IMG/VR virus record: IMGVR_UViG_3300034682_000175
Coordinates: 1 to 31,920 of that record
Strand: one strand, 5' to 3'
DNA: 31,920 bases
Source of the DNA: a virus
The notes beneath the pieces were generated by a model. It was given only the letters and a program-made list of their open reading frames with translations, had not been told where the DNA came from and did not search any database. Made by a program: the position numbers and the translations under genes. Below, piece after piece: positions 6,485 to 25,379 of this stretch. The first letter of the stretch is position 1, and each line of letters begins with the position of its first letter.

Positions 6485-8745
6485 TACGCCGCCTCAGTCG
6501 CCTTGCTCGACGACGGCTTGCTTGTAGTCGCTTTCTTCGGCGCGACCTTGGGTGCCGTCTTGTTGGCCGCGGCGGACGGTTTCGCTTTTCCGGAGGCTTT
6601 GCTCGAGGTAGCCTTCCTCGAAGCCTTCTTTTCGGAAGCTGCTGGCGCCGGCGCTGCGGGCATCGCTTCGAGCATCTGTTCGGCCAGCTGCTCACCATCA
6701 GCAAGATCAGCGGCCGCCGGCACCACCTCATGCCCCGCCTGGGCGATATCGTCGACGACGTGGGCTGCTAATGACCTCTCGTCCTGCGCCTGGCTGTCGA
6801 TCTCGATCTGGCTAGCTGTAGCTGGCGTCGATTCGCTCTGCGGAGGCATGGCGACGGACTGTTCGGCCTCGGCCTGCTGGTCACCTTTAATCCAATGATG
6901 ACCAGACCAGATGTAACCGAGTGCATTGCATGCTGTCTCGAGCATTCCTGTCAGCTCACCGCGGGGGTGGGACATGATGATCGTCGTGAGTTCTGCCAAG
7001 CGTTGAGGATGAGCGGTGATAAATTCCACCAGGTCGAATTCGCCCATGTCAGAGACGTCGATCGGTGTTGGCTGCAACTCCTGTCGCACCGCTTCGGGAT
7101 CAATGCCTTCGTGGCGCGCCATGGCCAGCACCGACTGGAATCCATCATCCACATGGTGATTATGCTGAATGCCCCAACGATCGACCGACAGGGTCTCGCC
7201 AACTAAGAGGTCAATCAGGAGCAGCTGCACTTGGGCCAAGTCGGCCTGGTCAATGTACGCCGCTGCCGCGGCGTCGCTCGTCGCCTCAAAGTCGTATTCG
7301 TCGCCGAGTAGATCATCTGGCAAGTGATGCTCTTGCAATGCCAGCTTTGTCAGTTCTCGCAATGACTGCAAGCAGAAGCCGGAGCTTGCTCGGCGGCGCA
7401 GGCGCTTGTAAAGCTCCACGCGGTACGCGGTCTCCAGCTCCGCTTTTTCCTTGAGCGCGTTCCATTCAGCCTCTTCGGCCTCGCGCTTCTTCTCATGCGC
7501 GACCTTGGCGGCTTGAGCGCTCGGGCTTTCCTCAAGCTCGGCCATGCGCGCAGCGTGTGCCTCGACGGTCTCGCATACGCCGGCCGCCTCCAGCGCAGCC
7601 TGCATAGCTGTGCGGAGATAGAGCGGAGTGAGGGCACCGTCCTCGCGTTTCACATACTTGACCACGGGCGGAAGGGCTTTCTCGTCCAGGTAATCTTTTG
7701 GCGCGCCGTGATTCTTGGTGGTAGGGGCGTTTCGAGGGAAGTTGTAGAGCGCAGCAGTGTCGGTTACCAATTCACTGCTGTTATCCCAACTGTTCGGGAG
7801 CGCCTTCTTTCCTTCGTCTCCCTCAAGCACTGGAATGCCCTGTTTGTTCGCCTTTACGACGGTTGCTGCGAAGTGCGCGGCACGCTTCTCTTTGAAGCAG
7901 TCTGGATCAGTGCAGACGTCTGCACTGACGCCAGCGAATACCTCTGGCTGATTTCCGGTCCGTTTCGGGCAGCTGGTGCACGCCCCGGCCGCGATGAGCA
8001 GCTTCGAGTCGGCAACCTTGAACACGGCCGTTTTCAGGTCGAGCATATAGGTGGACTGCACGTGCTGGACTGCCTGACGGTAGGACATTGGGTCGGAGCC
8101 CATCCATGCCGGCGGCTTGAGGATCTCGCCGAGGGCGCGGATCTGAAGTGCAGGCACTGGAATGCGAGCAATCAGCAGAGCGGTTGAGGCCGGGATTTTG
8201 TCGTCCAGGAATTGCTCGCGCACTTCAGTGGTCAGTGCACACAGCTTGAGGCGTCCATAGATGTATGCCCGGCTCTTCTTAACTTCATCGACCAGCTGGT
8301 CCGCGGTGAAGCCGTGCTGCAGCATCAGCAGCTGATAGCCCTCGGCCTCTTCCATCGGGTGTGGATCCTCGCGCTGCAGGTTCTCGAGAATGCGAATCTT
8401 CGCGGCGTCAAGGTCGCTGAGCTTCCGGCACAGGGCTGGGATGGTGGTCTTGCCGGCGATCTTCGATGCGCGGAACCGCCGCTCGCCGGCAACGATTTCG
8501 AACAGCTGCGGCGACTCCGGCGTTGGAGTGACCGGGCGAATCAGGATGGCCTGGGCGACGCCCATGGTCTTGATGCTGGCCGCGAGCTCCTGCAAGGCCT
8601 GTTCATTGAATCGCTTGCGGTTGTCTGGCGACGCTCGCATTTTGTCGAGCTCGAACTGCCCGTAGTATCCGTCGGTCAGCGCGTGTTCGGCTTGGGCCTC
8701 AGCAGTGGTGACTTCGTGCGCAGAGAGTGGGGGCGGAAGATTCAT
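6484..8745 (-). CDS. Orphan ParB/Spo0J-like DNA-binding protein
   Basis: A 753-residue protein with the ParB N-terminal CTP-binding fold: IVAGERRFRAS at about 84-94 (box I) and ILENLQREDPHPMEEAEGY near 117-135 (box II). A helix-turn-helix segment follows (FTADQLVDEVKKSRAYIYGRLKL). A Cys cluster (CTSCPKRTGNQ, then VCTDPDC, about 255-283) resembles a zinc knuckle seen in phage ParB relatives. The C-terminal 80 residues are Ala/Lys-rich, like a histone-type DNA-coating tail. No ParA is encoded nearby, so plasmid-style partition is unlikely. A transcriptional, DNA-clamp or replication role is more likely. A perfect palindrome (7907-7928) that I interpret as its own parS-like site lies inside the gene. 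It overlaps both neighbours in the leftward operon. Confidence 0.9.
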   Translation of the reverse strand: MNLPPPLSAHEVTTAEAQAEHALTDGYYGQFELDKMRASPDNRKRFNEQALQELAASIKTMGVAQAILIRPVTPTPESPQLFEIVAGERRFRASKIAGKTTIPALCRKLSDLDAAKIRILENLQREDPHPMEEAEGYQLLMLQHGFTADQLVDEVKKSRAYIYGRLKLCALTTEVREQFLDDKIPASTALLIARIPVPALQIRALGEILKPPAWMGSDPMSYRQAVQHVQSTYMLDLKTAVFKVADSKLLIAAGACTSCPKRTGNQPEVFAGVSADVCTDPDCFKEKRAAHFAATVVKANKQGIPVLEGDEGKKALPNSWDNSSELVTDTAALYNFPRNAPTTKNHGAPKDYLDEKALPPVVKYVKREDGALTPLYLRTAMQAALEAAGVCETVEAHAARMAELEESPSAQAAKVAHEKKREAEEAEWNALKEKAELETAYRVELYKRLRRRASSGFCLQSLRELTKLALQEHHLPDDLLGDEYDFEATSDAAAAAYIDQADLAQVQLLLIDLLVGETLSVDRWGIQHNHHVDDGFQSVLAMARHEGIDPEAVRQELQPTPIDVSDMGEFDLVEFITAHPQRLAELTTIIMSHPRGELTGMLETACNALGYIWSGHHWIKGDQQAEAEQSVAMPPQSESTPATASQIEIDSQAQDERSLAAHVVDDIAQAGHEVVPAAADLADGEQLAEQMLEAMPAAPAPAASEKKASRKATSSKASGKAKPSAAANKTAPKVAPKKATTSKPSSSKATEAA
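7907..7928. repeat. parS-like palindrome, copy 1 (perfect)
   Basis: A perfect 22-bp palindrome with core GTGCAGACGTCTGCAC (7910-7925), flanked by TCA and TGA. It lies inside the ParB-like gene, over its SADVCT codons. Confidence 0.8.
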
Positions 8746-9110
8746 GCATGCTCCAGTCTGGAAGGTTGGGGTTTGTTAGCGGCGCGGTTCTCAGCCGCGA
8801 TTGGGGTGTAAAAAGCGAGATCGAACTCGACGTGTCGGATGCGGATGTGCACGATCCATGCGGTGAGGCCTTGACGAGCTTTCGGCTGATGCTGAGGTTT
8901 GATCGGCGGGGAGATCTCGTAGCCGCGATTGCGCATGAGCTGTAAAACGCTGGGCAGATGCAAATGCAAGCCGTCTTCCGACACTTCAGCGGGAGTGCAG
9001 ACGTGTGCACTGCAAAAGCGATTCAGGACCGCTCGATCGCGTGTCTTATGCAAGGCCTGGCTGAGCTCCCCGGTCCCGACGGTCGCGCGTGGGGCAGTGG
9101 CGGCAATCAT
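8742..9110 (-). CDS. Hypothetical phage protein (122 aa), restarted
   Basis: The open frame extends to 9275, but a real small gene occupies that upstream DNA in another frame and stops here. I therefore start this protein at 9110, where ATG overlaps that stop as ATGA. The 122-residue product is basic with a possible helix (LPSVLQLMRNRGYEI) and a Cys pair in FCSAHVCTPAE. No family is recognised. It overlaps the ParB-like gene by ATGA. A near-perfect copy of the 16-bp palindrome lies inside it at 8995-9010. Confidence 0.65.
   Translation of the reverse strand: MIAATAPRATVGTGELSQALHKTRDRAVLNRFCSAHVCTPAEVSEDGLHLHLPSVLQLMRNRGYEISPPIKPQHQPKARQGLTAWIVHIRIRHVEFDLAFYTPIAAENRAANKPQPSRLEHA
8995..9010. 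repeat. parS-like palindrome, copy 2 (one mismatch)
   Basis: GTGCAGACGTGTGCAC is one base from the perfect 16-bp palindrome. It lies in the 122-aa gene just upstream of the ParB-like gene. Confidence 0.7.
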
Positions 9111-9247
9111 GCGCGCATCACCGAGATCGGCCGTGGCTGTTCGAAGCGACTTGCAGCCTCCAACCATGCGTCGTAGCTCGAGGATGAGGTGAAAAAGAAG
9201 GTGAGCGGGCCGTTTTCGGTCGCTACGGTGACGCGGAACAGGATCAT
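9107..9247 (-). CDS. Small phage protein (46 aa), first gene of leftward operon
   Basis: A short gene not obvious from length alone: MILFRVTVATENGPLTFFFT, then a Ser-rich turn, SYDAWLEAASRFEQPRPIS and VMRA before TGA. It has a good ribosome site (GAGGAAAAG just before ATG) and ends in an ATGA overlap with the next gene. The strand-turn-helix look resembles small proteins encoded just after leftward promoters of Burkholderiales phages. It is the first gene behind the operator-controlled leftward promoter. Function is unknown. Confidence 0.65.
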   Translation of the reverse strand: MILFRVTVATENGPLTFFFTSSSSYDAWLEAASRFEQPRPISVMRA

Positions 9248-9294
9248 CTTTTCCTCGGAAAATGACGACTCGCAACGGAGTCCATTCCGAGACT

Positions 9295-9309
9295 TTAGCC
9301 TAAAGCTAA
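9295..9309. promoter_or_regulatory. Operator copy 1 (left)
   Basis: TTAGCCTAAAGCTAA, one base away from the perfect 15-bp dyad TTAGCCTAAGGCTAA. It lies between the leftward promoter and the first gene. Centre-to-centre distance to copy 2 is 34 bp, the same as between copies 4 and 5 on the right side. Confidence 0.75.
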
Positions 9310-9325
9310 ATCAACCGCAACATTA

Positions 9326-9353
9326 ATTTTAGCCTAAGGCTAACTGACGTAAA
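9326..9353 (-). promoter_or_regulatory. Putative leftward early promoter (PL-like)
   Basis: On the minus strand, TTTACG (9348-9353) and TAAAAT (9326-9331) are separated by 16 bases. The spacer and -10 overlap the perfect operator at 9329-9343, so repressor bound there would block polymerase. It faces the 46-aa gene and the whole leftward operon down to int. Confidence 0.5.
9329..9343. promoter_or_regulatory. Operator copy 2 (left)
   Basis: TTAGCCTAAGGCTAA is a perfect dyad about its central A. It overlaps the leftward promoter, and the same sequence family flanks the Cro-like gene, so it is almost certainly a repressor/Cro binding site. Confidence 0.8.
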
Positions 9354-9364
9354 CGTGCGGGCGT

Positions 9365-9388
9365 AAAAAAGCCCGCGCAGGCGGGCTT
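9365..9388 (-). terminator. Terminator of the repressor-HIRAN operon
   Basis: AAGCCCGC (9369-9376) and GCGGGCTT (9381-9388) form an 8-bp GC stem with a 4-base loop. Read on the minus strand a T-run follows (plus-strand A-run 9365-9370), so it ends transcripts of the HIRAN-like and repressor genes before the leftward promoter. Confidence 0.85.
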
Positions 9389-9408
9389 GTTTGATTGAAA
9401 ACCTGTGA

Positions 9409-9792
9409 TCAGTCGTCGTCTTGTGGCAGATCGAGGCGGACACCGTAGTCACCGCGGTCACCGGGGCCGCGGTCCCAGCCACCTCGAATGATGGCGGCAC
9501 ACTTAAACGTTTCGTGCACGCTAAGCTTCCCGTAGCGAACTATTCGCCGGAAATCACGTGCCGCCTGACGAGACAAGTGCCCGACGTGTAGCCCGTTGAT
9601 TTCAACTCGTACAGCTTTATTGTCGTGAGGGTTTTCGTCATCCAGGATGAGATGTGCGTCGGCTTGCAGGTCAACGCCTTCTTCGCCCCATGGGCCACAA
9701 ATCCTTAAGAGATTGTTGCGGTAGAAGCTCTCACCGGCCACGTTAATTCTGAAGTGTCCTGGGCCAGTGATTCGTGGGATAGTGTCAGGCAT
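9409..9792 (-). CDS. HIRAN-like domain protein
   Basis: A 127-residue protein fitting a stand-alone HIRAN domain. An N-terminal strand with GESFY (FRINVAGESFYRNNLLRICG) is followed by DAHLILDDENPHDNKAVRVE and the signature GLHVGHLSRQAARDFRRIV. A final strand follows (FKCAAIIRGGW, YGVRLDLP). HIRAN domains bind 3' single-stranded DNA ends and occur in Rad5/HLTF-type repair proteins and alone in phages and bacteria. It is 12 bases after the CI-like repressor on the same strand and ahead of a shared terminator, so it should be made in the lysogen. A role in sensing damaged DNA or in protecting the lysogen is inference from position. Confidence 0.7.
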   Translation of the reverse strand: MPDTIPRITGPGHFRINVAGESFYRNNLLRICGPWGEEGVDLQADAHLILDDENPHDNKAVRVEINGLHVGHLSRQAARDFRRIVRYGKLSVHETFKCAAIIRGGWDRGPGDRGDYGVRLDLPQDDD

Positions 9793-9804
9793 TTGTTACT
9801 TGAT

Positions 9805-10512
9805 CTAAGGGCGGCGGAGCTTTTTTCTGTGTTCCGTTACCACACCGATTACAGCGAGTGCCTCGGTGTCGCTCCGTAATGTAGGGTAGTCGTCATTTAA
9901 GGGAACAAGCTCGAAAATCAAGTTCCCGGCTGCATCTATCCCGCGAGGCCGATATTTCTTGAATGTTGCCTGTTCGCTCCCGTTGCGTGCTACGACGTAG
10001 TCGCCGGGATTCGGCGAGATTTCAGGGTCGACCATGATCCGATCTCCTGGGCGAAAATCGGGCATCATCGAGAGTCCTTCTACGTCGAGGGCAAACGCCC
10101 AGCTCGACAAATCCTGATCTGTGTATTCGTATGCGTACCCTGCACCCGGAGGATACGGATTCTCCATATCTCTTAGCGCGCCGGCTTGAATAGACGAGAT
10201 AACAGGAATAGGGCGTAGGCCGCCGCTAGTCGAAGGCTTTACGTTCTCATCGAAGGGTTGGGCGCTTCCTTCGTTGTCGGTGTGTGGCTGATCCAGCCAG
10301 CCAGCAGGTTTTCCTGCTGCCAGCTCAATGCGTCTTGCCGAGCTCGAGCGCATACCGCGGGGCTTGCCAGTAGCAGAGTGCGTAGATCCGTTCATCCACT
10401 GGCTGTACTGCGAAGCGCTGCAACCTATCCGCGCAGCTACAGCGGCAACGCCACCAAATTCATCCGCCAGCAATCGCAGATTTTCTTTGTGGATCGTTTC
10501 TAGTGTTTTCAT
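9805..10512 (-). CDS. LexA/CI-type self-cleaving prophage repressor
   Basis: A 235-residue repressor that should keep the lytic promoters off. The N-terminal helix-turn-helix (FGGVAAVAARIGCSASQYSQ, then WMNGS) reads DNA. The C-terminal S24 peptidase has Ser148 (DVEGLSMMPDFRPGD) and Lys185 (ATFKKY), with the cleavage pair Ala110-Gly111 (SSIQAGALRD). RecA-stimulated autocleavage, giving SOS induction, is therefore expected. It is transcribed away from the Cro-like gene with three operators between them. The likely -10 TAAATA (10521-10526) is only about 8 bases before the ATG, so the mRNA may have almost no leader. Confidence 0.93.
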   Translation of the reverse strand: MKTLETIHKENLRLLADEFGGVAAVAARIGCSASQYSQWMNGSTHSATGKPRGMRSSSARRIELAAGKPAGWLDQPHTDNEGSAQPFDENVKPSTSGGLRPIPVISSIQAGALRDMENPYPPGAGYAYEYTDQDLSSWAFALDVEGLSMMPDFRPGDRIMVDPEISPNPGDYVVARNGSEQATFKKYRPRGIDAAGNLIFELVPLNDDYPTLRSDTEALAVIGVVTEHRKKLRRP

Positions 10513-10523
10513 CTATCCATTAT

Positions 10524-10538
10524 TTAGCAATTGGCTAA
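10524..10538. promoter_or_regulatory. Operator copy 3 (right, next to repressor)
   Basis: TTAGCAATTGGCTAA matches the 15-bp dyad with changes in the inner bases. It overlaps the likely -10 of the repressor promoter, so binding here would give negative autoregulation. Confidence 0.7.
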
Positions 10539-10547
10539 TGGAGTAAA

Positions 10548-10562
10548 TTCGCCTATGGCTAA
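10548..10562. promoter_or_regulatory. Operator copy 4 (right, middle)
   Basis: TTCGCCTATGGCTAA is a weaker copy of the dyad. It is centred 24 bp from copy 3 and 34 bp from copy 5. Confidence 0.65.
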
Positions 10563-10570
10563 CATTCCTC

Positions 10571-10599
10571 TTGCGCTTTATTTAGCCTTAGGCTAATCT
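10571..10599 (+). promoter_or_regulatory. Rightward early promoter (PR-like) for the Cro-like gene
   Basis: TTGCGC (10571-10576), 17 bases, TAATCT (10594-10599). Operator copy 5 covers the spacer and part of the -10. The predicted start point falls at about 10605-10607, on the ATG of the Cro-like gene. Confidence 0.65.
10582..10596. promoter_or_regulatory. Operator copy 5 (right, next to cro)
   Basis: TTAGCCTTAGGCTAA is a perfect dyad, the complement of copy 2. It overlaps the rightward promoter. Confidence 0.8.
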
Positions 10600-10605
10600 G
10601 GCGAA

Positions 10606-10851
10606 ATGAACCTCTCCCAATACCTCGTCCAAGAGCGTGGCCGTCAAGCTTCGTTGGCCCGCGCGATCGGTGCACACGCGCCTGACATTAGCCGTTGGGC
10701 TGACGGTACGAGACCCATTCCCATAATCCACGCAGCAGCGATCGAATCTGCTACCGGGGGATTGGTAACTCGTCAGGAGATGTTCCCAGACGACTGGGCG
10801 CGCATCTGGCCCGAATTGGCAGCTGCCTGTATCGAAGGCAACCCAGCATAA
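10606..10851 (+). CDS. Cro/YdaS-like antirepressor-type helix-turn-helix protein
   Basis: An 81-residue protein with an early helix-turn-helix (GRQASLARAIGAHAPDISRW) and the DGTRPIPIIHAAAIESATGG pattern typical of YdaS/Cro proteins of lambdoid phages. It is the first rightward gene and divergent from the repressor. There is no ribosome site before the ATG, and the promoter puts the transcript start at the ATG, so translation is probably leaderless. It likely competes for the same operators to commit to lytic growth. Confidence 0.85.
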   Translation: MNLSQYLVQERGRQASLARAIGAHAPDISRWADGTRPIPIIHAAAIESATGGLVTRQEMFPDDWARIWPELAAACIEGNPA

Positions 10852-10873
10852 GAAAACTTACCCAGTGTAAAGC

Positions 10874-10931
10874 GGCGTGGTCGCTCGATCAGGCACGCCC
10901 CTGCAGTTGCCGCACGGAAATAAAAGCGGCA
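10874..10931 (+). promoter_or_regulatory. Two adjacent hairpins in the leader of the YmfL-like gene
   Basis: GGCGTG (10874-10879) pairs with CACGCC (10894-10899). TGCCGC (10908-10913) pairs with GCGGCA (10926-10931). They sit between the Cro-like and YmfL-like genes without T-runs. They could be an antitermination (nut-like) or processing site. This is weak evidence from pairing alone. Confidence 0.35.
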
Positions 10932-11001
10932 GATAAGTATCCATGTTGCAAGAATAGGTTGGCGCGAGGTCGGCGGCAACCACAGCGAAAGAGAGGCAGT
11001 T

Positions 11002-11463
11002 GTGAATTTAAGGCAATCTTACCTGTCGATGATCAAGGCGTTTCCCGGTGGCTGGGACGCCATGGCCGGGGCTCTCGGCATGAGCCGTGACGCGCTCGAG
11101 AACCGCGTGTACGAGCGCAAGGGGCAAGGCGTTACGGTCGAAACCGCGCTGCAGATCCAGGCGTTCTCGCAGACCACCCACTTTGCCGAAGCGGTCGCAA
11201 CCGCGAGCGGCGGCACGTTCCTCAAGTTGCCTGACGATCTCGACGAAGGTAACGAGCTGCTGATGTCCAAGTTCCAGACGCTCTACGTGCGACTGGGAGA
11301 GTTTTCCAAGGACTTTACCGCGGCGACGGCGGACGACCTGATCGACCGTCGTGAGCAGGCCATCCTCGAGCACGACGCCGCCGAGCTGCACAAGGTCGTC
11401 GCCGAACTCCTCGCGCTTACCTTGCGCATCTATGCACCGCAGGGCGGCAGGGAGGCGGAATGA
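11002..11463 (+). CDS. YmfL-like phage regulatory protein
   Basis: A 153-residue protein starting at GTG after GAGAGGCAG. The N-terminus (MNLRQSYLSMIKAFPGGWDA, then MAGALGMSRDALENRVYERKG) is the YmfL-family helix-turn-helix that occupies the CII-like slot in lambdoid prophages. The rest is helical (LYVRLGEFSKDFTAATADDL, AELHKVVAELLALTLRIYAP) and probably mediates oligomer formation. It likely acts on early promoters, but the targets are unknown. It overlaps the next start by ATGA. Confidence 0.85.
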   Translation: MNLRQSYLSMIKAFPGGWDAMAGALGMSRDALENRVYERKGQGVTVETALQIQAFSQTTHFAEAVATASGGTFLKLPDDLDEGNELLMSKFQTLYVRLGEFSKDFTAATADDLIDRREQAILEHDAAELHKVVAELLALTLRIYAPQGGREAE

Positions 11464-11879
11464 CTCTGCATCGTCTGCCGCGCGCAGGCAGCCGCGCACA
11501 TTCGGTCTTGCTTCACCTAGTGCGGTGTGGCGGGACGTCGACGCCGACAGCGCTGCTTCGCGCAATAGCTTATCCGCGTGCGCGCGCGGAGTTCGACGTA
11601 GCCGTCATCGGACTGCTGGAGCGTCAGGGCCTCGTGGTCAGGAGCAACGAGACGGTACTGCTGACGGTCTGGGGCCGCCAGCTTGTAGAGCCAGAGCCGG
11701 CGCCAGCAGCCGAGGTCGCGGTAGTGACGCCCGGCCGCTACGCGCCGCCGATGCGGCCGCTGTCCCTCAAGAATCGCCCACGCCTGGTGTCGATGCGGCC
11801 AGGTTCGCTCGCATATCGCGACATCCCCTCGCGTATGGCAAATGAACTCGTCTATCACGTAGAGAAGGCGACTGCGTGA
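11460..11879 (+). CDS. Hypothetical phage protein with winged-helix look (139 aa)
   Basis: The first half reads like a winged helix (HSVLLHLVRCGGTSTPTALLRAI, EFDVAVIGLLERQGLVVRS, TVLLTVWGRQLVE). The second half is Pro/Arg-rich and probably disordered. It is coupled at both ends (ATGA with the YmfL-like gene, GTGA with the primase-helicase). A replication-initiation or accessory DNA-binding role is plausible from its place just before the primase-helicase, but unproven. Confidence 0.75.
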   Translation: MTLHRLPRAGSRAHSVLLHLVRCGGTSTPTALLRAIAYPRARAEFDVAVIGLLERQGLVVRSNETVLLTVWGRQLVEPEPAPAAEVAVVTPGRYAPPMRPLSLKNRPRLVSMRPGSLAYRDIPSRMANELVYHVEKATA

Positions 11880-14380
11880 CCGGCCAAGATTTTATTGCTG
11901 TTGGGCGCGCAGCGCTCAACCAAATTGAAACACTCCTCGCCGAATGGTTCCCGAACGGCGCGCGGGAAGGTCACGAATTCTGCATTGGATCGCGCGACGG
12001 TGAGGCTGGCCAGTCGCTGCGCATTCGTCTCACCGGCGACAAGGCCGGGGTTTGGTCTGACTTCTCCGACGGCGAAGCCGGCGGCGATCTGATCTCGCTC
12101 TATGCATTCGTCAACAGCCTCTCTCCAGGCCGCGCCTGCGCGGCCCTGGCCGAGCGCCTCGGTATCCCGCTGACCCCGCGCGATAAACCGAGTGGTAACG
12201 GAAGCGCACCGATCGTCTTGAAGCCGAAACAGTCCCCTATTCGCACGCCTGCGCAAGCCGGCAAAGGGGTAGAAGCACCTGCCGAGAAAAAATCACGGAC
12301 GCCATGGGCGCCGATGCTGCCGGTCCCCCAGGACGCTGGATCGCCACCGAAAGCCCACGTGGTCCGCGGCCGACCCGAAGCATCCTGGGAATACCGCGAC
12401 GTCGATGGCCACCTGCTCGGCGTGATCTACCGGTTCCTGCGTTCTGACGGCGGCAAGGAAGTGCTGCCCTGCGTTTATGCGCGCAACGCGGAGTCCGGAC
12501 GGAAGGAATGGCGTTGGATGGCCTTCCCTGAGCCGAGGCCGCTCTACCTTCGTGGGCCACACCGGCCCGAACTTCCGGTGCTGGTCCTCGAAGGCGAGAA
12601 GTGCGTCGATAAGGCTGTTGGACTTCCTGCGGTGCATGAGAACTTCGAGGTGCTGACGTGGTCCGGCGGCGGCAAGGCTGTCAAAAAATCTGATTGGTCC
12701 GCGATCCGCAGCCGCAACGTGATCTTGTGGGCTGACGCCGACGCAAAGGTCTACAAGGAGGGCCACGAATACGCCGGCCAGATCATGCCTGAATGTGAGC
12801 AGCCGGGCATGGTCGCCATGGTCCAGGTCGCGGCGATCCTGCAGGCGCAGGACTGCAGCGTGTTCTTCATCGATATTCCTGCACCTGGCGATGTGGCCGA
12901 TGGGTGGGACATTGCCGACCTGATCGATGGCGGCGCCACCGAGGAGCAGGTCGTCGCCTGGCTCACTAGGCTGCGCGTCGATCAGGCGGCCGAGGATGAC
13001 GACGAGCTGGTGCAGGAGCCGTCTGCTGACGATGTGCCAGCATGGGTAGCCGAGCAACTGGACGCGGCACCGGCAGGCACTTCCACCCCTTTGCCGGCTG
13101 GCGCGGGCGTGTCGAAGAAGCAGCTTCGCCAGATGCTGATCCAGACGGCGAACGGCGGCGTGAAGGGGTGCCGTGAGAACGTCTACATGGTGATGGAGAA
13201 TGACCCGCGCCTGATTGGCCTGGTTGGCCTAGACATGTTCTCCGGCCTGCAGATGAAGCGCCGCCCGACGCCATGGCCGAGCGAGCCAGGCGAATGGACC
13301 GAATCCGATGACTTCCGCCTGGGCATGTACATGGCCGAGCATCACAGCCTCGTCCTGGCGTCTATCGGCGACATCGAGCGCGGCGTCGCCCAGGCAGCAC
13401 GCGAACATTCCTTCAATCCGGTCGTGGATTACTTCGACCGCTGCGCATCCATGTGGGACGGGCAGGCGCGGGTAGCGACGGCCTTTACCACGTATTGGGG
13501 CGCAGCCGACTCGGAGTACCTGCGGCTGGTGGCTACGATGTTCTTCATCGGGATTGTGGTCCGCGGCTACCGGCCGGGGGTGAAGAACGACCACGCGCCA
13601 GTGTTCGAAGGCGGCCAGGGCCGTGGTAAATCGACTGCGCTCAAGGTGCTGGGCGGCGACTGGTTCGCCGACACGCCTTTCCGGATGGGGGAGAAGGACG
13701 GCTACCTGTCGATCCAGGGTGTGCTGCTGTATGAGGTCGCCGAGCTCGAGCAGTTCAACCGCTCCGAGGTCACGGCCATCAAGGCCTTCATGTCCAGCAC
13801 CGTCGACCGCTTCCGCGAGCCATACGGCCGCCGCATGAAGAACATGCCGCGCCGATGCGCTTTCGCCGCGACGACGAACGAAGACGCCTATTTCAAGGAC
13901 TCAACCGGGAACCGGCGCTTCTGGCCGGTCGAGACGGGGCGCCTCGATATTGAAGCGCTGATCGCGGATCGCGACCAGCTGTTCGGCGAAGCGATCGCGC
14001 TGATGAATGCCGGCGTCCAGTGGTGGCCGACATACGAGCAGCAGCAGCGCCTGATCAGTCCGATGCAGGAAAGCCGCGAGATCCCGGATCCATGGCATGG
14101 ACGCGTGTACGAATATCTGGAAGGGATGGACACCGAAGGCAAGCCGACGATGGTTGGCAAGGTCACGCGCATCACCGCGCGCGAGCTGCTGACCAGGGCG
14201 CTGCACTTCGAGTTGTCGAAGATGGGGCCAGCGCGGGCAGAGACGATGCGTATCGGCGCGATCATGCGCAAGCTGGGATGGAGCAAGGAGCGGAGTACGG
14301 AAGGCGCACGCGAGTATTTTTACGAGCGGCCGAAGGCAGCTCCTGCAGGGGGCGAGGTGGGAAATGGCCTGCCAGGTTAA
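11876..14380 (+). CDS. Toprim/VapE-type primase-helicase
   Basis: An 834-residue replication protein starting at a GTG that overlaps the previous stop. A short N-terminal primase-associated part is followed by a Toprim-like segment (PVLVLEGEKCVDKAV at about 233-247 and NVILWADADAKV at about 281-292). The C-terminal VapE helicase has Walker A GGQGRGKS at 579-586, Walker B-like LLYEVAELEQF about 616-626, a sensor (CAFAATTNED) and an arginine-finger region (STGNRRFWPVE). It should prime and unwind phage DNA. No DnaB or DnaC-type loader is present, so it probably acts alone, as P4 alpha does. The inverted-repeat cluster right after it may be its origin. Confidence 0.9.
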   Translation: MTGQDFIAVGRAALNQIETLLAEWFPNGAREGHEFCIGSRDGEAGQSLRIRLTGDKAGVWSDFSDGEAGGDLISLYAFVNSLSPGRACAALAERLGIPLTPRDKPSGNGSAPIVLKPKQSPIRTPAQAGKGVEAPAEKKSRTPWAPMLPVPQDAGSPPKAHVVRGRPEASWEYRDVDGHLLGVIYRFLRSDGGKEVLPCVYARNAESGRKEWRWMAFPEPRPLYLRGPHRPELPVLVLEGEKCVDKAVGLPAVHENFEVLTWSGGGKAVKKSDWSAIRSRNVILWADADAKVYKEGHEYAGQIMPECEQPGMVAMVQVAAILQAQDCSVFFIDIPAPGDVADGWDIADLIDGGATEEQVVAWLTRLRVDQAAEDDDELVQEPSADDVPAWVAEQLDAAPAGTSTPLPAGAGVSKKQLRQMLIQTANGGVKGCRENVYMVMENDPRLIGLVGLDMFSGLQMKRRPTPWPSEPGEWTESDDFRLGMYMAEHHSLVLASIGDIERGVAQAAREHSFNPVVDYFDRCASMWDGQARVATAFTTYWGAADSEYLRLVATMFFIGIVVRGYRPGVKNDHAPVFEGGQGRGKSTALKVLGGDWFADTPFRMGEKDGYLSIQGVLLYEVAELEQFNRSEVTAIKAFMSSTVDRFREPYGRRMKNMPRRCAFAATTNEDAYFKDSTGNRRFWPVETGRLDIEALIADRDQLFGEAIALMNAGVQWWPTYEQQQRLISPMQESREIPDPWHGRVYEYLEGMDTEGKPTMVGKVTRITARELLTRALHFELSKMGPARAETMRIGAIMRKLGWSKERSTEGAREYFYERPKAAPAGGEVGNGLPG

Positions 14381-15315: not shown

Positions 15316-15357
15316 GATACGCGTGCTAGATGCCGATATTGCGTCTAACACACGAGC

Positions 15358-15389
15358 AAAGCCCGCCCCGAAAGGTCGCGGGCTTTTTT
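15358..15389 (+). terminator. Rho-independent terminator before the late genes
   Basis: AAAGCCCGC (15358-15366) and GCGGGCTTT (15378-15386) form a 9-bp stem with an 11-base loop followed by six T. It ends early rightward transcription, and read-through would need antitermination or a new late promoter. Confidence 0.9.
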
Positions 15390-15527: not shown

Positions 15528-15543
15528 GTGCAGACGTCTACAC
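15528..15543. repeat. parS-like palindrome, copy 3 (one mismatch)
   Basis: GTGCAGACGTCTACAC differs from the perfect 16-bp palindrome at one base. It is non-coding and directly touches the ribosome site (GAAGGAAG) of the first late gene at 15556, so a protein bound here would stand at the start of the late operon. Confidence 0.7.
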
Positions 15544-16311: not shown

Positions 16312-16330
16312 CCTTTTGCGATTTCCAAGG

Positions 16331-16370: not shown

Positions 16371-16410
16371 GAGTTTTCTCTAGTCACAGACCCGTCCTAA
16401 GGGGGTTGTA

Positions 16411-19285: not shown

Positions 19286-19328
19286 CCGTGAATATATACG
19301 GAGAGAGCTTCTTGATGAAATGTTTTAT

Positions 19329-19901: not shown

Positions 19902-19935
19902 TAAAGTTCCTTTTTTAAATCAATAAAAACTAAAT

Positions 19936-19964
19936 ATATTTTTTCAAATTTAATCGCGAGTCAA
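19936..19964 (-). promoter_or_regulatory. Moron promoter
   Basis: On the minus strand TTGACT (19959-19964), 17 bases, AAATAT (19936-19941). The region is AT-rich, and the moron start follows after an AAGGA ribosome site. Confidence 0.5.
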
Positions 19965-19979
19965 AATTTGCGATTAAAT
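19948..19979. promoter_or_regulatory. Inverted repeat over the moron promoter, candidate operator
   Basis: ATTTAATCGC (19948-19957) and GCGATTAAAT (19970-19979) are perfect inverted copies with a 12-base spacer holding the TTGACT element. A dimeric repressor bound here would block the moron promoter. It is unlike the phage CI operators, so the regulator could be a host protein. Confidence 0.55.
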
Positions 19980-20027
19980 GCAGCAACACAACTTGTGATT
20001 CTGCCATGTTTTTTGATGAAAGTCATT

Positions 20028-20053
20028 GTCTCATCTTTCCCTAGAAATGAGAC
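20028..20053. promoter_or_regulatory. Late dyad, copy 1
   Basis: A 26-base element beginning GTCTCAT and ending ATGAGAC, with TCCCTA in the centre. It is 23/26 identical to the copy at 21921. It lies 42 bases upstream of the gpW-like gene and just after the reversed moron, where the late genes need a new promoter or activator site. Confidence 0.6.
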
Positions 20054-20095
20054 GTGTAGCTCGCTAGTGTTGGATAGGCAAACAAGGAGTATCTA

Positions 20096-20329
20096 ATGAA
20101 TAACGCATCAACTATGCTGTCTGAATATTTAAAGGCCGAACTTGCCGTCTTAGCAGGTAAGACCATTACCTTCCAAGGCCGTTCGATGGGCATGGAAAAT
20201 CTCCAAGAGATCCGTGCAGGCCGCCGTGAATGGGAGTCACGCGTGGCACAGGAGTCGCGCGTCGCTAGCTGCCGCCCGTCGATCGGCGGCATGTCGTTCT
20301 CCGTCGCAAGCTTCGGAGACCGCGGATGA
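20096..20329 (+). CDS. gpW-like head-tail joining protein
   Basis: A 77-residue protein: a helical start (MLSEYLKAELAVLAGKTITF) followed by a turn (QGRSMGMENLQEIRAGRREW). This fits lambda gpW, a small protein that seals the filled head before tail attachment, and gpW always precedes the portal gene as here. It has a strong ribosome site (AAGGAG) and overlaps the portal start by ATGATG. The moron insertion separates it from the terminase. Confidence 0.8.
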   Translation: MNNASTMLSEYLKAELAVLAGKTITFQGRSMGMENLQEIRAGRREWESRVAQESRVASCRPSIGGMSFSVASFGDRG

Positions 20330-21861
20330 TGAAGCCGGCTCAAAAGGTCCAACTCAATTTCTTCGACCAGGCGATCGCGTTCTTCTTCCCTGGTGCCGGC
20401 GTGCGCCGTCTTGCTGCACGCAACGTCCTGAGCCAGTACGAAGCCGCGAAGCCGTCTCGCCTACGCAAGGGCCGCAAGGCGAACGGCTCGCCGAACGCCG
20501 GCTCGCAGATGGGCGCGGTCGGCCTGCGCGGCTTGGCCCGACACCTCGAGTCAAACCACGATATCGCGCGCGGTGCGCTGCGCACCCTGGTGAACAACGT
20601 CGTCGGCCCGAGCGGCATCGGCATCGAGCCGCAGCCGCGGCGCCGCGATGGTTCCATCCACGCCGAGTACGCGGCCGCGTTACGCAAAGCCTACCGGGAC
20701 TGGGCGCAAACGCCAGAGGTCACGCAGCGGCACCACTGGAGCAAGGTGCAGCGCATGGTCGCGAAGACGTGGCTGCGCGACGGCGAGTGCTTCTCCCAGC
20801 GCCTCATCGGCGCCGTGCCGCTGCTCGACCACGGCACCAAGGTTCCGTACTCGCTTGAGCTGATCGAGCCTGACCTGATCCCCTTCGATTACTTCGACCA
20901 GGCGCGCGGCATCCAGCAGGGCATCGAGCGCAACACTTGGGGCAAGCCTACCGGCTACTGGGCCTACAAGAGCTTCCCTGGCGGTGACACTTGGACGAAG
21001 GGCAGCTACGAGCTCAAGCGCATCGAAGCCGGCCGCATGCATCACATTGCGTCGATCGACCGCATCGGGCAGATGCGCGGCGTGTCCGAGTTCGCCAGTG
21101 TCATCGGCCGCCTCGAGGACATCAAGGACTACGAGGAGTCCGAGCGCATCGCGGCGAAGGTCGCGGCGTCCTTGACGGCATACGTCAAGAAGGGCTCGCC
21201 CGAACACTACCCTGAGGTCGGCGACGGCGCCGCAGGCCAGCCGCGCGAGCTGCACTTCTCGCCCGGCATGATCATCGACAACCTGGGCGTGGGTGAAGAG
21301 ATCGGCATGATCGATTCCAACCGTCCGAATCCGAACCTGGTCACGTTCCGCCAAGGCCAGCTGCGCGCGGTTGCGGCCGGCCTGGGCGGCAGCTACTCGA
21401 GCATCGCGCGCGACTACAGCGGCACCTACTCCTCGCAACGCCAGGAGCTGGTCGAGCAGTGGATCCACTACGCGGTGCTGTGCGATGAGTTCGTCGGCCA
21501 GTTCGTTCAGCCGACCTGGAACGACTTCGTGCTGGCATCCCGCCTGTCTGGGGCGGTGCCGATGCCGGCCGACGTGGATCCCGAGACCGCAGACGACGCG
21601 CTGTTCGTTGGCCAGTCGATGCCTTGGATTGATCCGCTGAAGGAGGCGATGGCCTGGCACTCCCTCGTACTGGACGGCTTCGCCAGCGAGGCCGAGGTCA
21701 TGCGCAAGCGCGGCGCGAATCCGCGCGACGTCATGGAGCAAGTCGCAGCGCACCGTGCCGAGTGCAAGGACCGCGGTCTCGTGTTCGCTTCCGACTTCGC
21801 CAACACCAACAAGTCGGCGCCGCCGGCCCCTCCGCCCAAAGAAGACGACAAGGACGAGTGA
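20326..21861 (+). CDS. Portal protein (lambda gpB family)
   Basis: A 511-residue protein that would form the 12-mer ring through which DNA enters the head. Family marks include AVGLRGLARHLESNHDIARG and ALRTLVNNVVGPSGIGIEPQ near the start, RMVAKTWLRDGECFSQRLIG and LELIEPDLIPFD in the middle. SSIARDYSGTYSSQRQELVE, the wing/crown part typical of gpB portals, and a charged tail follow. The start overlaps the gpW-like stop, and a terminator follows. Confidence 0.95.
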   Translation: MMKPAQKVQLNFFDQAIAFFFPGAGVRRLAARNVLSQYEAAKPSRLRKGRKANGSPNAGSQMGAVGLRGLARHLESNHDIARGALRTLVNNVVGPSGIGIEPQPRRRDGSIHAEYAAALRKAYRDWAQTPEVTQRHHWSKVQRMVAKTWLRDGECFSQRLIGAVPLLDHGTKVPYSLELIEPDLIPFDYFDQARGIQQGIERNTWGKPTGYWAYKSFPGGDTWTKGSYELKRIEAGRMHHIASIDRIGQMRGVSEFASVIGRLEDIKDYEESERIAAKVAASLTAYVKKGSPEHYPEVGDGAAGQPRELHFSPGMIIDNLGVGEEIGMIDSNRPNPNLVTFRQGQLRAVAAGLGGSYSSIARDYSGTYSSQRQELVEQWIHYAVLCDEFVGQFVQPTWNDFVLASRLSGAVPMPADVDPETADDALFVGQSMPWIDPLKEAMAWHSLVLDGFASEAEVMRKRGANPRDVMEQVAAHRAECKDRGLVFASDFANTNKSAPPAPPPKEDDKDE

Positions 21862-21873
21862 TTCTTTGTGCCG

Positions 21874-21899
21874 AGGCCACCACCAGGTGGCCTTTTTTT
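21874..21899 (+). terminator. Rho-independent terminator after portal gene
   Basis: AGGCCACC (21874-21881) and GGTGGCCT (21886-21893) form an 8-bp stem with a 4-base loop and a run of seven T. It is odd inside a virion operon: expression of the capsid gene then needs read-through or a promoter after it. Confidence 0.9.
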
Positions 21900-21920
21900 C
21901 GTCCACGCCCAGCAAAAACT

Positions 21921-21946
21921 GTCTCATTTCTCCCTAGAAATGGGAC
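21921..21946. promoter_or_regulatory. Late dyad, copy 2
   Basis: A 26-base element beginning GTCTCAT and ending ATGGGAC, with a CTCCCTAG centre. It matches the copy at 20028 at 23 positions, and pairing in the arms is kept. It lies between the portal terminator and the capsid gene. Confidence 0.6.
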
Positions 21947-22003
21947 TGCCGGACCAACAAACTGATGACTTCAAAACGAAGCATTCGACAAGGAAAACGG
22001 ACG

Positions 22004-24055
22004 ATGGCTACAGCAGACCAGAACCAGCCGCCGAAGTGGTACACCATCCGCCCCAACGCGCGCGCAAACGCCGCTGGCGGCGTGCAGGCTTCCGCTGCGG
22101 AGATCCTCATCTATGGCGACATCGGCGAGAGCTGGTATGGCGACACCATCGCAGCGGCGTCGTTCGTGCGCGATGTGATGGCCCTCGACGTCGAGCAGCT
22201 CACCGTGCGCATCAACAGCTACGGCGGCTCGGTGACCGATGGCATCGCGATCCACAACGCGCTCAAGCGGCATAAGGCTGCCGTCACCACCGTCGTCGAC
22301 GGCATCGCCGCTTCGATCGCCAGCCTGATCGCGATGGCCGGCGACACCGTCGAGATGGCGGAGAACGCCCAGATCATGATCCACGCCCCGTGGGGCTGGA
22401 ACTCCGGTAACAGCGCCGCCATGCGGGAGTACGCCGACATGCTCGACAGCTGGGCCGACGCGATGTCGACCACCTACGCGTCGAAGACCGGCGGCGACAA
22501 GGCAGAGATGCTGGCCCTGCTCACCGACGGCAAGGATCACTGGTACACCGCCGAGCAAGCACTGGCTGCCAAGTTCGTAGACGTCGTGGTTGCCGGCCTG
22601 CCGGTCGCCGCGAGCGCTCAGTTGAAGGATTCCATCAAGGCGCGGTACGCATCGTTCCCGCAGCCGACCACCCCGGCGGCATCTGCCGCGCCTCAACCCC
22701 CATCGAAGGAGAGCAACACCATGGCAGGAGCCAATACCCCGGCGGGCGCCAACCCGTCCCAGGACGCCGTGAAGGCGGCAGCACAGGCCGCTCTGGCAGC
22801 CGACAAGACCCGCCGCGCGGGTATCGCTGCGGCGTTCGCGTCGTTTGCCAGCATCGACGGTGTAACTGCCCTGCAGGCGGCCTGCGCCGACGATCACGAC
22901 TGCACCCTCGAGCAGGCCAACACCAAGCTGCTGGCACACCTGGGCAAGGGCTCGGCGCCGGTCGCAGGCAGCTACATCGTCACGCTGGAAGACGAGCGTG
23001 ACAAGTTCCGCGCCGGCGCCCAAGCGTCGATCCTGGCGCGCAGCAACCTCGCCAAGGACGACAAGGCGAACAACTACCGCGGCCTCACGCTGATGGACCT
23101 GGCGCGCGAGTGCCTGGCCCACGCCGGCGTGAACGCACGTGGCATGTCGAAGATGGACGTGGTTGCGGCTGCGTTCACCAACACCAGCTCGGACTTCCCG
23201 CTGCTGCTGGCCAACGTCGCCGACAAGGCCATGATGAAGGGCTACGAGGAAGCGGAAGAGACCTTCCAGCTGTGGACCTCCGTCGGCACCCTCGGCGACT
23301 TCAAGCCGGGCAAGCGCCTGGACCTGAATACCTTCCCGTCGCTGGACAAGATCCAGGACGGCGGCGAGTACAAGTACGCCAACGTGGGTGAGCGCGGCGA
23401 GACCGTGCAGCTGGCCACCTACGGCAAGATGTTCTCGCTGACCCGTCAGACCATCATCAACGACGACCTGGACGCCTTTACCAAGATCCCGCGTCGCATG
23501 GGGCGCGCCGCGATCCGCACCATCGGTGACCTGGTGTACGCGATCCTGACCGGCAATCCGCTGATGGCAGACGGCAAGGAGCTGTTCCACGGCGACCACA
23601 AGAACCTGCTGGCTGCTGCCGGCATCTCCACCGCCGGCGTCGACGCCATGCGTGTTGCGATGGCCAAGCAGACCGATGGCAACGCCACCCTGAATATCCG
23701 CCTGGCCAAGCTGCTCGTGCCGGTCGCGCTGGAAGGCACTGCCAAGGTCGTGAAGGACAGCGAGTTCGAAGTCGGTGCAAACACCAAGAACAACACGGTG
23801 CCGAACTCGGTACGCGGCACGTTCGAGGTCATCAGCGATGCCCGCCTGGATAGCGCGCCAACCACCTGGTACGGCGCGGCCGATCAGAACATTCACGACA
23901 CCGTCGAAGTGCAATACCTGGACGGCAACCAGGCGCCGACGCTCGAGCAGCAAGATGGCTGGACCCGCGATGGCGTCGAGTTCAAGGTCCGCATGGATGC
24001 CGGCGTCAAGGCGCTCGACTTCCGCACCCTGGCCAAGACCCCAGGCGCTGCATAA
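22004..24055 (+). CDS. ClpP-type prohead protease/major capsid protein fusion
   Basis: A 683-residue head protein. Residues 1-215 are an S14 ClpP-like protease with Ser104 (GIAASIASL) and His127 (QIMIHAPWG). A Pro/Ala linker follows, then an HK97-type major capsid protein (about 240-683: SYIVTLEDERDKFRAGAQAS, FTNTSSDFPLLLANVADKAM and VEFKVRMDAGVKALDFRTL at the end). The frame opens at 21965, but the ATG at 22004 has AAGGA in front and starts MATADQNQPPKW. Inside the linker a strong ribosome site (AAGGAG, 22706-22711) precedes an in-frame ATG at 22721, so a separate capsid product is likely as well. Protease-capsid fusions are known in lambda-like phages. Confidence 0.93.
   Translation: MATADQNQPPKWYTIRPNARANAAGGVQASAAEILIYGDIGESWYGDTIAAASFVRDVMALDVEQLTVRINSYGGSVTDGIAIHNALKRHKAAVTTVVDGIAASIASLIAMAGDTVEMAENAQIMIHAPWGWNSGNSAAMREYADMLDSWADAMSTTYASKTGGDKAEMLALLTDGKDHWYTAEQALAAKFVDVVVAGLPVAASAQLKDSIKARYASFPQPTTPAASAAPQPPSKESNTMAGANTPAGANPSQDAVKAAAQAALAADKTRRAGIAAAFASFASIDGVTALQAACADDHDCTLEQANTKLLAHLGKGSAPVAGSYIVTLEDERDKFRAGAQASILARSNLAKDDKANNYRGLTLMDLARECLAHAGVNARGMSKMDVVAAAFTNTSSDFPLLLANVADKAMMKGYEEAEETFQLWTSVGTLGDFKPGKRLDLNTFPSLDKIQDGGEYKYANVGERGETVQLATYGKMFSLTRQTIINDDLDAFTKIPRRMGRAAIRTIGDLVYAILTGNPLMADGKELFHGDHKNLLAAAGISTAGVDAMRVAMAKQTDGNATLNIRLAKLLVPVALEGTAKVVKDSEFEVGANTKNNTVPNSVRGTFEVISDARLDSAPTTWYGAADQNIHDTVEVQYLDGNQAPTLEQQDGWTRDGVEFKVRMDAGVKALDFRTLAKTPGAA
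22721..24055 (+). CDS. Nested major capsid protein from internal start
   Basis: The in-frame ATG begins MAGANTPAGANPSQDAVKAA and is preceded by AAGGAG with 9-base spacing. This is the same device as lambda C/Nu3: one gene gives both a protease fusion and a free 444-residue capsid protein, which the head needs in hundreds of copies. The start is inferred from the ribosome site only. Confidence 0.6.
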   Translation: MAGANTPAGANPSQDAVKAAAQAALAADKTRRAGIAAAFASFASIDGVTALQAACADDHDCTLEQANTKLLAHLGKGSAPVAGSYIVTLEDERDKFRAGAQASILARSNLAKDDKANNYRGLTLMDLARECLAHAGVNARGMSKMDVVAAAFTNTSSDFPLLLANVADKAMMKGYEEAEETFQLWTSVGTLGDFKPGKRLDLNTFPSLDKIQDGGEYKYANVGERGETVQLATYGKMFSLTRQTIINDDLDAFTKIPRRMGRAAIRTIGDLVYAILTGNPLMADGKELFHGDHKNLLAAAGISTAGVDAMRVAMAKQTDGNATLNIRLAKLLVPVALEGTAKVVKDSEFEVGANTKNNTVPNSVRGTFEVISDARLDSAPTTWYGAADQNIHDTVEVQYLDGNQAPTLEQQDGWTRDGVEFKVRMDAGVKALDFRTLAKTPGAA

Positions 24056-24116
24056 GCCGTCCCCATAACCCTGGCGTCGCGCTTGCGGCGCCCCCTGAAT
24101 CGAAAAGGAGCCAGCA

Positions 24117-24446
24117 ATGGCAAAGAATTACGTGAGCGAGGGCGACGTGTTGGACTACACCTCCGGCGCGACCGCAATCGCCTCGGGCTCGGTCGTAGCC
24201 ATGGGCAAGCGGATCGGTATCGCCCTCTCGGACATCCCTCCCAACAGCACCGGCTCGGTCGCTGTTACCGGAGTGTGGACCGTTGCGAAACTGCCGGCCG
24301 ACGATGTCGCCCAGGGCGAGCTGCTGTACTGGGATGCCGCCAATGTGCGTCTCACCGAGACCGCTGGCGCGCTTGCCGTCGCCGGCTACGCTGCAGCTGC
24401 GGCCGGCGCTGGTGCGACTTCCGTCCGCATCAAGATCAACGCCTGA
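24117..24446 (+). CDS. DUF2190-type capsid decoration protein
   Basis: A 109-residue strand-rich protein (AKNYVSEGDVLDYTSGATAI, VWTVAKLPADDVAQGELLYW) fitting DUF2190, the beta-tulip cement proteins that sit on phage heads. It starts after AAAAGGAG and directly follows the capsid gene, as decoration genes do. It shares one base with the next start. Confidence 0.88.
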   Translation: MAKNYVSEGDVLDYTSGATAIASGSVVAMGKRIGIALSDIPPNSTGSVAVTGVWTVAKLPADDVAQGELLYWDAANVRLTETAGALAVAGYAAAAAGAGATSVRIKINA

Positions 24447-24751
24447 TGTTCGACCAGCTCGAAGCCCGCCTGAACCGGCTCGCGATGGAGCGCCTGTCGA
24501 ATGCCCTGGCGCGCATTCCCGGCGTCGAGGGTGACATCCCGGTCATCTTCGACACCGAGTACAGGAACGGCATGGTCGGCATGGGCATGGGTGCGGCGGC
24601 GCCGCAAATGGTCATCGCCAACGATCGCGTACCTCAAGATTTCGACGAGCTGCGCATCACCGTCAACGGTGCGGCCTGGAGGGTGGCCGACTGCCAGCCC
24701 GATAGCTATCTGCCGACCGGCCTGAGCCTGGTCGTCCTGGAGAAAGCATGA
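24446..24751 (+). CDS. Head-tail joining protein (gpFII-like)
   Basis: A 101-residue protein starting MFDQLEARLNRLAMERLSNA. A helix is followed by strands (IPVIFDTEYRNG, MVIANDRVPQDFDELRITVN, AWRVADCQPD and GLSLVVLEKA). This is the small beta-barrel pattern of lambda FII, which caps the head-tail interface. The position between decoration and tail-terminator genes agrees. Its start overlaps the gene before (TGATG) and its end overlaps the gene after (ATGA). Confidence 0.8.
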   Translation: MFDQLEARLNRLAMERLSNALARIPGVEGDIPVIFDTEYRNGMVGMGMGAAAPQMVIANDRVPQDFDELRITVNGAAWRVADCQPDSYLPTGLSLVVLEKA

Positions 24752-25197
24752 CGACCCAGCACATGGCGATCGTACAGGCAGTCGCACAGCGCCTGCAGGC
24801 AGACCCGGCAATCGTCGTGGACCGCGTCTACGTCAACCGCCGGCGCCCACTGGGCAGTGACAAAAGCCGGGCAATCGTGGTCCGTCTCGGCCGCTCGTTG
24901 TCGCAGGAGGTGAAGCAGCTGGGTGGCCGTACCTCGTGGGACACGCTGCTCGAGATCGAGTGCTACGGCCGCGACGGCGCCGACGATGTGCCCGGCACGG
25001 TCGCGGACCAAGTGCTCGAGGCAGTCTTCGACAACCTGGATGGTGGCGCGGGTCTCGGCTATGGCGTGATGGATATCGGACCTCTGCCGGGCGACACCCT
25101 GGCTTGGGACTTCGAGGAGCTGGACAACAGCGTGGCGTGCGTCAGTGCGCGCTTCGTAGTGAAACACCAAACCAACGGGAGGACCCTGAAGTTATGA
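24748..25197 (+). CDS. Tail terminator protein (gpU-like)
   Basis: A 149-residue protein with a helical start (MAIVQAVAQRLQADPAIVVD) and mixed strands (AIVVRLGRSLSQEV, SWDTLLEIECYGRDGADD, SVACVSARFVVKHQ). It fits phage tail terminators, which cap the tail tube and bind the head completion ring. It is placed directly before the tail tube gene and overlaps both neighbours by ATGA. Confidence 0.78.
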   Translation: MTTQHMAIVQAVAQRLQADPAIVVDRVYVNRRRPLGSDKSRAIVVRLGRSLSQEVKQLGGRTSWDTLLEIECYGRDGADDVPGTVADQVLEAVFDNLDGGAGLGYGVMDIGPLPGDTLAWDFEELDNSVACVSARFVVKHQTNGRTLKL

Positions 25198-25379
25198 AAG
25201 AACTGAAAACCGCCGGCGCGAGTACGCCGGATCTGGTCAAGGCTGAAGAAGTGCAGACGTCTGCACTGGCGCCCGTGCCGCAGCAAGACCCTGCGGTGGG
25301 CGGCAGCTACGTCCGCAATGTTGGTACCGGCGAGCTCACCAAGATCGAACCGGTCCGTGAACCGAAAGAACAGGAGTAA
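25194..25379 (+). CDS. Small hypothetical protein before tail tube (61 aa)
   Basis: A 61-residue polar protein (MKELKTAGASTPDLVKAEEV, and so on), probably disordered. It overlaps the tail terminator stop by ATGA and ends 3 bases before the tail tube gene. It has no known family. A perfect copy of the 16-bp parS-like palindrome lies inside it, so the DNA may matter as much as the peptide. Confidence 0.7.
   Translation: MKELKTAGASTPDLVKAEEVQTSALAPVPQQDPAVGGSYVRNVGTGELTKIEPVREPKEQE
25251..25266. repeat. parS-like palindrome, copy 4 (perfect)
   Basis: GTGCAGACGTCTGCAC, extended to 18 bp by flanking A and T. It lies in the small gene before the tail tube gene, read there in a different frame (EVQTSAL) from copy 1. 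Confidence 0.8.

Follow-up and report, generated by a model that had tools for sequence, protein, structure and literature searches.

An orphan ParB and its predicted 16-bp palindromic sites, dispersed through the genomes of a temperate phage family

The IMG/VR virus record IMGVR_UViG_3300034682_000175, analyzed here over its entire length of 31,920 bp (hereafter the window), encodes an integrase, a parB operon, an S24 repressor, Cro, CII, a primase, terminase, portal, a protease-capsid fusion, and tail genes, and contains four copies of a GTGCAGACGTCTGCAC-type 16-bp palindrome that we propose to be the sites of the ParB protein encoded in the same record. All four copies were recovered at the positions and with the mismatch counts of the original prediction, made from the letters of the window: site 1 (7910..7925) and site 4 (25251..25266) are perfect copies of GTGCAGACGTCTGCAC, while site 2 (8995..9010, GTGCAGACGTGTGCAC) and site 3 (15528..15543, GTGCAGACGTCTACAC) each carry one mismatch, and none is assigned to a strand. 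Site 1 is located inside parB, where it covers codons 274-279 (SADVCT), the second half of a zinc-finger-like CxxC...CxxxxC segment, and site 2 is located in the open reading frame (ORF) upstream of parB. Site 3 lies 12 nt 5' of the ATG (15556) of a tail-protein gene; the PHROG match to this gene starts at residue 22 of a longer ORF, which is that ATG, and since it is the likely start, site 3 is the best candidate for the non-coding copy that had been claimed. Site 4 is positioned between the tail-terminator and tail genes and is itself probably coding, as it is read in frame (V-Q-T-S-A) in a small ORF of 61 codons (25194-25379) that overlaps the preceding stop codon. Because the record is limited to the window, four sites are a minimum, and complete relatives reach eight. 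The claim that the copies far exceed chance was borne out by dinucleotide shuffles of the window, none of which (0/100; mean 0.27) gave four matches at ≤3 mismatches, and the permuted-palindrome controls described below agree.

The ParB, a protein of 753 residues encoded on the minus strand at 6484..8745, matched the Pfam families ParB_N (2.5e-22) and HTH_ParB (5e-11). It comprises a ParB_N CTPase (cytidine triphosphatase) fold with the motifs GERRFRA and ENLQR, the HTH_ParB domain, the zinc-finger-like segment, whose CxxC...CxxxxC pattern is conserved in the family, and a helical C-terminal region. Structural comparison of the N-terminal part revealed matches to ParB (1vz0, 6e-39), Noc, and KorB; as the AlphaFold model is modest overall (predicted local distance difference test score of 70, with a disordered C-terminal tail), it was used for the N-terminal fold only. 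The cytidine triphosphate (CTP)-binding motif GERRxRA was present in 55/55 ParBs, a count that is partly circular given that the motif was used for extraction, ENxQR was present in 49 of the 55, and neither motif varied across alignments A1 and A2, whose sequences were picked by homology. The protein thus combines the ParB_N fold and the GxxR and ENxxR motifs of the ParB CTPase superfamily with HTH_ParB and a 16-bp palindromic cognate site, the latter predicted by co-occurrence, and from these features we infer that the phage ParB may bind CTP, close into a clamp, and slide. No ParA (PF13614) was detected in 33 phages, whereas 14/14 control genomes were positive, and the ParA-binding motif (L/F/I)G[K/R]G(L/F/I), as defined in PMC12704722, was absent from the first 200 residues of all 55 ParBs. 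The prediction of a ParB-like protein lacking a ParA was therefore upheld, and partition via a ParA of the phage's own is ruled out by the 33 ParA-less phages. The protein also remained below the cut-offs of the NCBIfam models for Noc (TIGR04285, 132 bits versus 315) and the PRTRC ParB (TIGR03734, 130 bits versus 278.6).

The association between this ParB and the palindrome held in both directions. Virus records fetched by ParB homology alone carried the palindrome in 30 of 30 cases (1-7 copies at ≤2 mismatches), while a reversed-pattern control matched one of the 30. Conversely, the exact 16-mer alone retrieved at least 120 stretches from the collection, compared with three in the whole collection for a control palindrome built from the same bases, and in hand counts from the result tables 38 of the 66 exact-16-mer records outside the ParB list encode the family ParB, as do 34 of the 39 that are at least 25 kb long. 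In 37 sequences, nearly all of them family phages (1.29 Mb), we counted 72 exact, 57 one-mismatch, and 27 two-mismatch palindromes, the exact count being partly ascertained since about 10 of the 37 had been chosen via the exact site; 200 permuted palindromes gave means of 0, 0.04, and 0.85, respectively, over the same DNA. Furthermore, when 24 window genes were profiled across 17 phages, ParB was the only one detected in every one of the 14 diverse phages tested that encode ParB and bear sites; it was not detected in G518 and G520, two phages devoid of sites. Among relatives whose TerL is at least 79% identical to that of the window, nine encode ParB and carry 2-5 sites each, whereas G518 (44 kb) and G520 (40 kb), which are near-complete and retain TerS, TerL, and tail genes, have neither ParB nor a site at ≤2 mismatches. 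As the DNA of these two phages resembles the window closely only around TerS-TerL, they are, judged by their sequences, lineage mates in the packaging genes and not overall sisters.

The association extends to isolated phages and to distant family members. VarioGold encodes a ParB 40% identical to that of the window and has six sites spread genome-wide, and Aval (45% identical) has about five, also spread genome-wide and mostly of the variant form GTGCACACGTGTGCAC. Variant motifs are likewise dispersed in divergent prophages of the host genomes described below; G282, for example, has TTGCAGGCGCCTGCAA or closely similar forms in seven copies. When half-site variants were mapped to residues of the recognition helix, no clear rule emerged, and G036 combines a divergent helix with standard sites. 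Taken together, these comparisons make it highly probable that ParB and palindrome are paired; the proposal that the palindromes are the sites of the orphan ParB was supported in every computational test, including its corollaries that their presence tracks the ParB family and that they are missing from phages lacking it, here the two near-complete members of the TerL lineage.

We further searched for the palindrome in host chromosomes. A profile search of genome contigs returned mostly ordinary ParBs, with only L159 and L160 looking like family members, and the host search was centred on the genome of L160 and covered 401 genomes from the family to which Pseudacidovorax RU35E belongs. ParB matches at E≤1e-50 occurred in 31 of these genomes. 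The set contains 15 exact palindromes: 12 have a family parB within 21 kb, and three are isolated (G291, G405, and G227 contig 27). Among 11 genomes chosen via other ParB loci, 10 had no palindrome at ≤1 mismatch, and the remaining one is a metagenome-assembled genome that carries the family ParB. In these genomes, host chromosomes have essentially no copies of the palindrome outside family prophages; an equal frequency in the host chromosome, which the prediction had named as evidence to the contrary, was looked for in both genome sets and is not the case, and a host chromosome motif is ruled out by the same counts.

The number of sites per phage is typically 4-8. No clustering was detected in 38 phages (P(even)>0.9 in 0/38), so that a single centromere of the ParABS type was not seen, and the mean P(even) was 0.28 compared with 0.5 expected. 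As the phages are related, we regard even spacing as a tendency and not as a test result, and strict equal spacing was rejected as a general rule. A divergent group (G136, G183, G184, G407, and G282) is strongly even, with sites on average about 4-6 kb apart. In three annotated genomes, genes contain 13 of the 17 sites, and several of these 13 are separated from the nearest gene end by hundreds of bases.

Several observations weigh against dispersed loading sites for ParB. Evenness is strong only in the one divergent subgroup, the phages not being independent, and some neighbouring sites are only 27-60 bp apart (G060 and G035). In the annotated genomes, 9/17 sites lie ≤60 nt from a gene end compared with 3.5 expected, which would also suit gene control. 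Four ParB-less fragments of TerL relatives (18-29 kb) carry 1-3 sites, although these may simply miss the parB end, and a few further site-bearing records have no detectable ParB. One of these, G086 (36 kb), is a real exception, in which ParB was not detected despite the presence of sites in a record that appears to include the early-left region. That region of G086 encodes, between repressor and integrase, a 1011-residue NACHT/STAND nucleoside triphosphatase (L415:11586-14621), a possible defence gene.

The arrangement of the parB operon provides hints toward the timing of ParB expression. Its first gene is the ORF of 177 residues (8742..9275, minus strand) that overlaps the parB start (TGA/ATG) and that matched no family in profile scans. 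Upstream lie two CI-type operators (oL), TTTAGCCTAAAGCTAA at 9294..9309 and TTTAGCCTAAGGCTAA at 9328..9343, the second of which is overlapped by a predicted pL-like leftward promoter (9326..9353, minus strand), a consensus match only. An S24-family CI-like repressor is encoded at 9805..10512 on the minus strand (Pfam Peptidase_S24, 1.1e-15; PHROG transcriptional repressor), and three further CI-type operators (oR; 10520..10596, starting at 10520, 10547, and 10581) are located between CI and Cro, so that TTTAGCCTAAGGCTAA-type repeats, all without strand assignment, occur both there and just 5' of the parB operon. Read leftward, a hairpin runs into a stretch of T residues (CGGGCTTTTTTACG; 9369..9388, minus strand), a likely terminator that would keep the CI-HIRAN transcript apart from the parB operon. 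A lambda-like two-operator layout, each with its own repeats, was also found in VarioGold and Aval. Given the operators shared between oL and oR, and by analogy with lambda, ParB should be an early lytic protein, made soon after infection or induction and mostly off in lysogens. The CI-type repeats differ in sequence from the palindrome, which rules out the palindrome as a CI operator.

Other genes of this region were also noted. The tyrosine integrase is encoded at 3634..4749 on the minus strand (Pfam Phage_integrase, 2.4e-14), and a sigma factor gene of RNA polymerase (124-918) lies beyond the integrase end, the left part of the window probably being host flank. A HIRAN-domain protein (9409-9792) is encoded directly 3' of the CI repressor, where lambda has its rex genes. 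Besides the full primase (11876-14380), the window has a gene for a VapE/primase-like fragment of 251 residues (5481-6236) near the integrase, and relatives lacking ParB have a similar one. In G520 (L400:3001-5094) and G518 (L398:17044-18834), both without ParB and sites, a C5-cytosine DNA methyltransferase occupies the parB operon slot, which in G518 adjoins the same primase-like fragment gene.

Comparison with known systems revealed partial likenesses. For both ParB and Noc, a 16-bp palindrome is the point of nucleation, and CTP allows association with neighbouring DNA (PMC7383237, PMC8429893). The Bacillus Noc is a ParB paralogue without the ParA motif that recognizes a 16-bp palindromic Noc-binding site (NBS; TATTTCCC-GGGAAATA, PMC7383237) in a CTP-dependent manner (PMC8429893), and the phage family shares with it an orphan ParB with dispersed 16-bp sites. 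However, the phage site (GTGCAGAC-GTCTGCAC) differs from the NBS consensus, the Noc model cut-off is not reached, and the protein is phage-borne, about 753 residues long, and equipped with a zinc-finger-like segment and a long C-terminal region. Chromosomal ParB/parS resembles the phage system in its N-terminal CTPase fold, its HTH domain, and a 16-bp palindrome of 8-bp half-sites (parS, TGTTTCAC-GTGAAACA, PMC7383237), whereas the phage system lacks ParA and the ParA motif and has several dispersed sites with another half-site. KorB of RK2 works at promoters with the co-repressor KorA, in contrast to the phage sites, which are mostly inside genes. RK2 also carries a ParA, IncC. KorB is nonetheless a ParB-family protein and a structural match to the phage ParB, and from distal OB sites it silences promoters as a CTP sliding clamp (PMC11790492). 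The lambdoid phage-plasmid N15 encodes SopA, and its prophage is a linear plasmid that needs partition, unlike the ParB-site phages, in which ParA was not found and an integrase is present. The IR sites of N15 are dispersed over its genome. Like the phages studied here, N15 pairs a phage ParB (SopB) with four inverted-repeat sites, IR1-4 (PMC7205306). According to a 2025 PNAS survey, orphan ParBs are common on mobile elements and prophages and mostly uncharacterized (PMC12704722), and the present ParB is of this kind, being orphan, without the ParA motif, and on a mobile element.

Before the function of the sites is considered, two explanations that would detach them from ParB have to be weighed. 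Sites 1, 2, and 4 lie inside ORFs, and site 1 coincides with the conserved CxxxxC motif, so chance or protein conservation alone could be invoked for the palindromes. Yet the same DNA is read in different genes and frames, and the shuffle, permuted-palindrome, and control-palindrome counts speak against chance. Moreover, among 50 non-redundant ParBs, the serine 274 codon at the parB-internal site is AGT in 18/22 cases (5.7% background, p=2e-19) and the alanine 275 codon is GCA in 32/39 (17% background, p=9e-19), by binomial tests in which related sequences count as independent; these values are not attained in any other column with sufficient residues. The third codon positions at this site, read across the alignment, are thus held to the palindrome, since rare synonymous codons are fixed that the palindrome needs and the protein does not. 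At site 4, all 16 bases are intact in nine relatives while the flanks are 74-92% identical; site 2 is identical in G053, G517, G006, and G511 and is altered on both arms together in G004 (GTGCAAACGTTTGCAC), and in G511 the mismatch of site 3 sits on the opposite arm. The permuted-palindrome counts and the codon constraint together rule out chance or simple protein conservation, to which we attach practically no weight. It is also very improbable that the palindrome belongs to another phage protein (a repressor, terminase, or late regulator) and merely travels with ParB. The early operon moves as a block, so another gene could co-vary, and G086 has sites without a detectable ParB. On the other hand, the CI operators have a different sequence, ParB is the sole window gene shared by the 14 diverse site-bearing phages, and G518 and G520 have kept TerS, TerL, and tail genes but neither ParB nor site.

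We therefore favour, with a probability of roughly 0.6 for the statement as a whole, that the palindromes are scattered points at which a CTP-gated ParB clamp loads, and that this clamp organizes or covers replicating phage DNA. Like parS or NBS, each palindrome would be a cognate nucleation site, here for the ParA-less ParB that the phage itself encodes. Expressed from the pL-like promoter, which CI would shut in the lysogen, ParB would be made early after infection or induction, bind the dispersed 16-bp sites through its HTH domain, close into a CTP clamp, and slide onto the adjoining DNA. With sites a few kilobases apart, it could cover much of the replicating genome and organize or shield it before packaging, so that the sites would be neither ordinary operators nor a partition centromere. 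A more specific version, in which the ParB coat shields incoming or replicating DNA from host nucleases or silencing as a sequence-primed alternative to methylation, appears doubtful; it draws on the DNA methyltransferase that takes the place of parB in the site-less phages G518 and G520. Control of transcription in the manner of KorB, with ParB loading at its sites, sliding to distant promoters, and repressing or timing them, perhaps with a partner, is a less probable but tenable alternative: RK2 KorB represses at >1 kb by clamp sliding (PMC11790492), the phage sites are somewhat nearer gene ends than expected, and one precedes a late gene. Against it, most of the annotated sites are within genes, and a genome-wide spread with copies inside parB and tail genes is unlike an operator set. 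Segregation of an episomal phage (a carrier state or phage-plasmid) through a host ParA or another host factor is unlikely. Stable inheritance of the phage-plasmid N15 does need active partition with SopB and its IR sites (PMC7205306), and a complete temperate phage of the ParB-site kind, with six sites, is recorded as a 36.9-kb circular 'plasmid unnamed2' of Comamonas odontotermitis WLL (NZ_CP083453.1, L368). This record shows an excised circular form and not partition, however, and may be induced phage DNA; in addition, with CI operators at its promoter, parB is predicted to be silent in stable lysogens, and integrases are present where ParA and its binding motif were not found. The original prediction's rejection of partition is supported by these same points; of the two halves of its 'gene-control or DNA-organising role', we favour the second. 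DNA organization or shielding in early lytic growth is the most likely function, ahead of long-range gene control and then segregation.

For one orphan ParB family, these analyses provide a predicted cognate site, a genome-wide site layout, and a predicted time of expression; relative to the excerpted parts of the survey (PMC12704722), binding sites, genome layout, and regulation are new for a prophage ParB family. Since the family phages VarioGold and Aval have already been isolated, the proposed function is directly testable, and the new ParB-site specificity could be of use in CTP clamp studies or DNA labelling. A separate arrangement was noted on the Myxococcus stipitatus plasmid pYRE (L369), where repeated palindromes, such as CCCGGCCGTGGCCGGG with seven copies, cluster at 36333-49730 around a ParB gene without a neighbouring parA, the second ParB gene of a plasmid that has a parAB pair as well.

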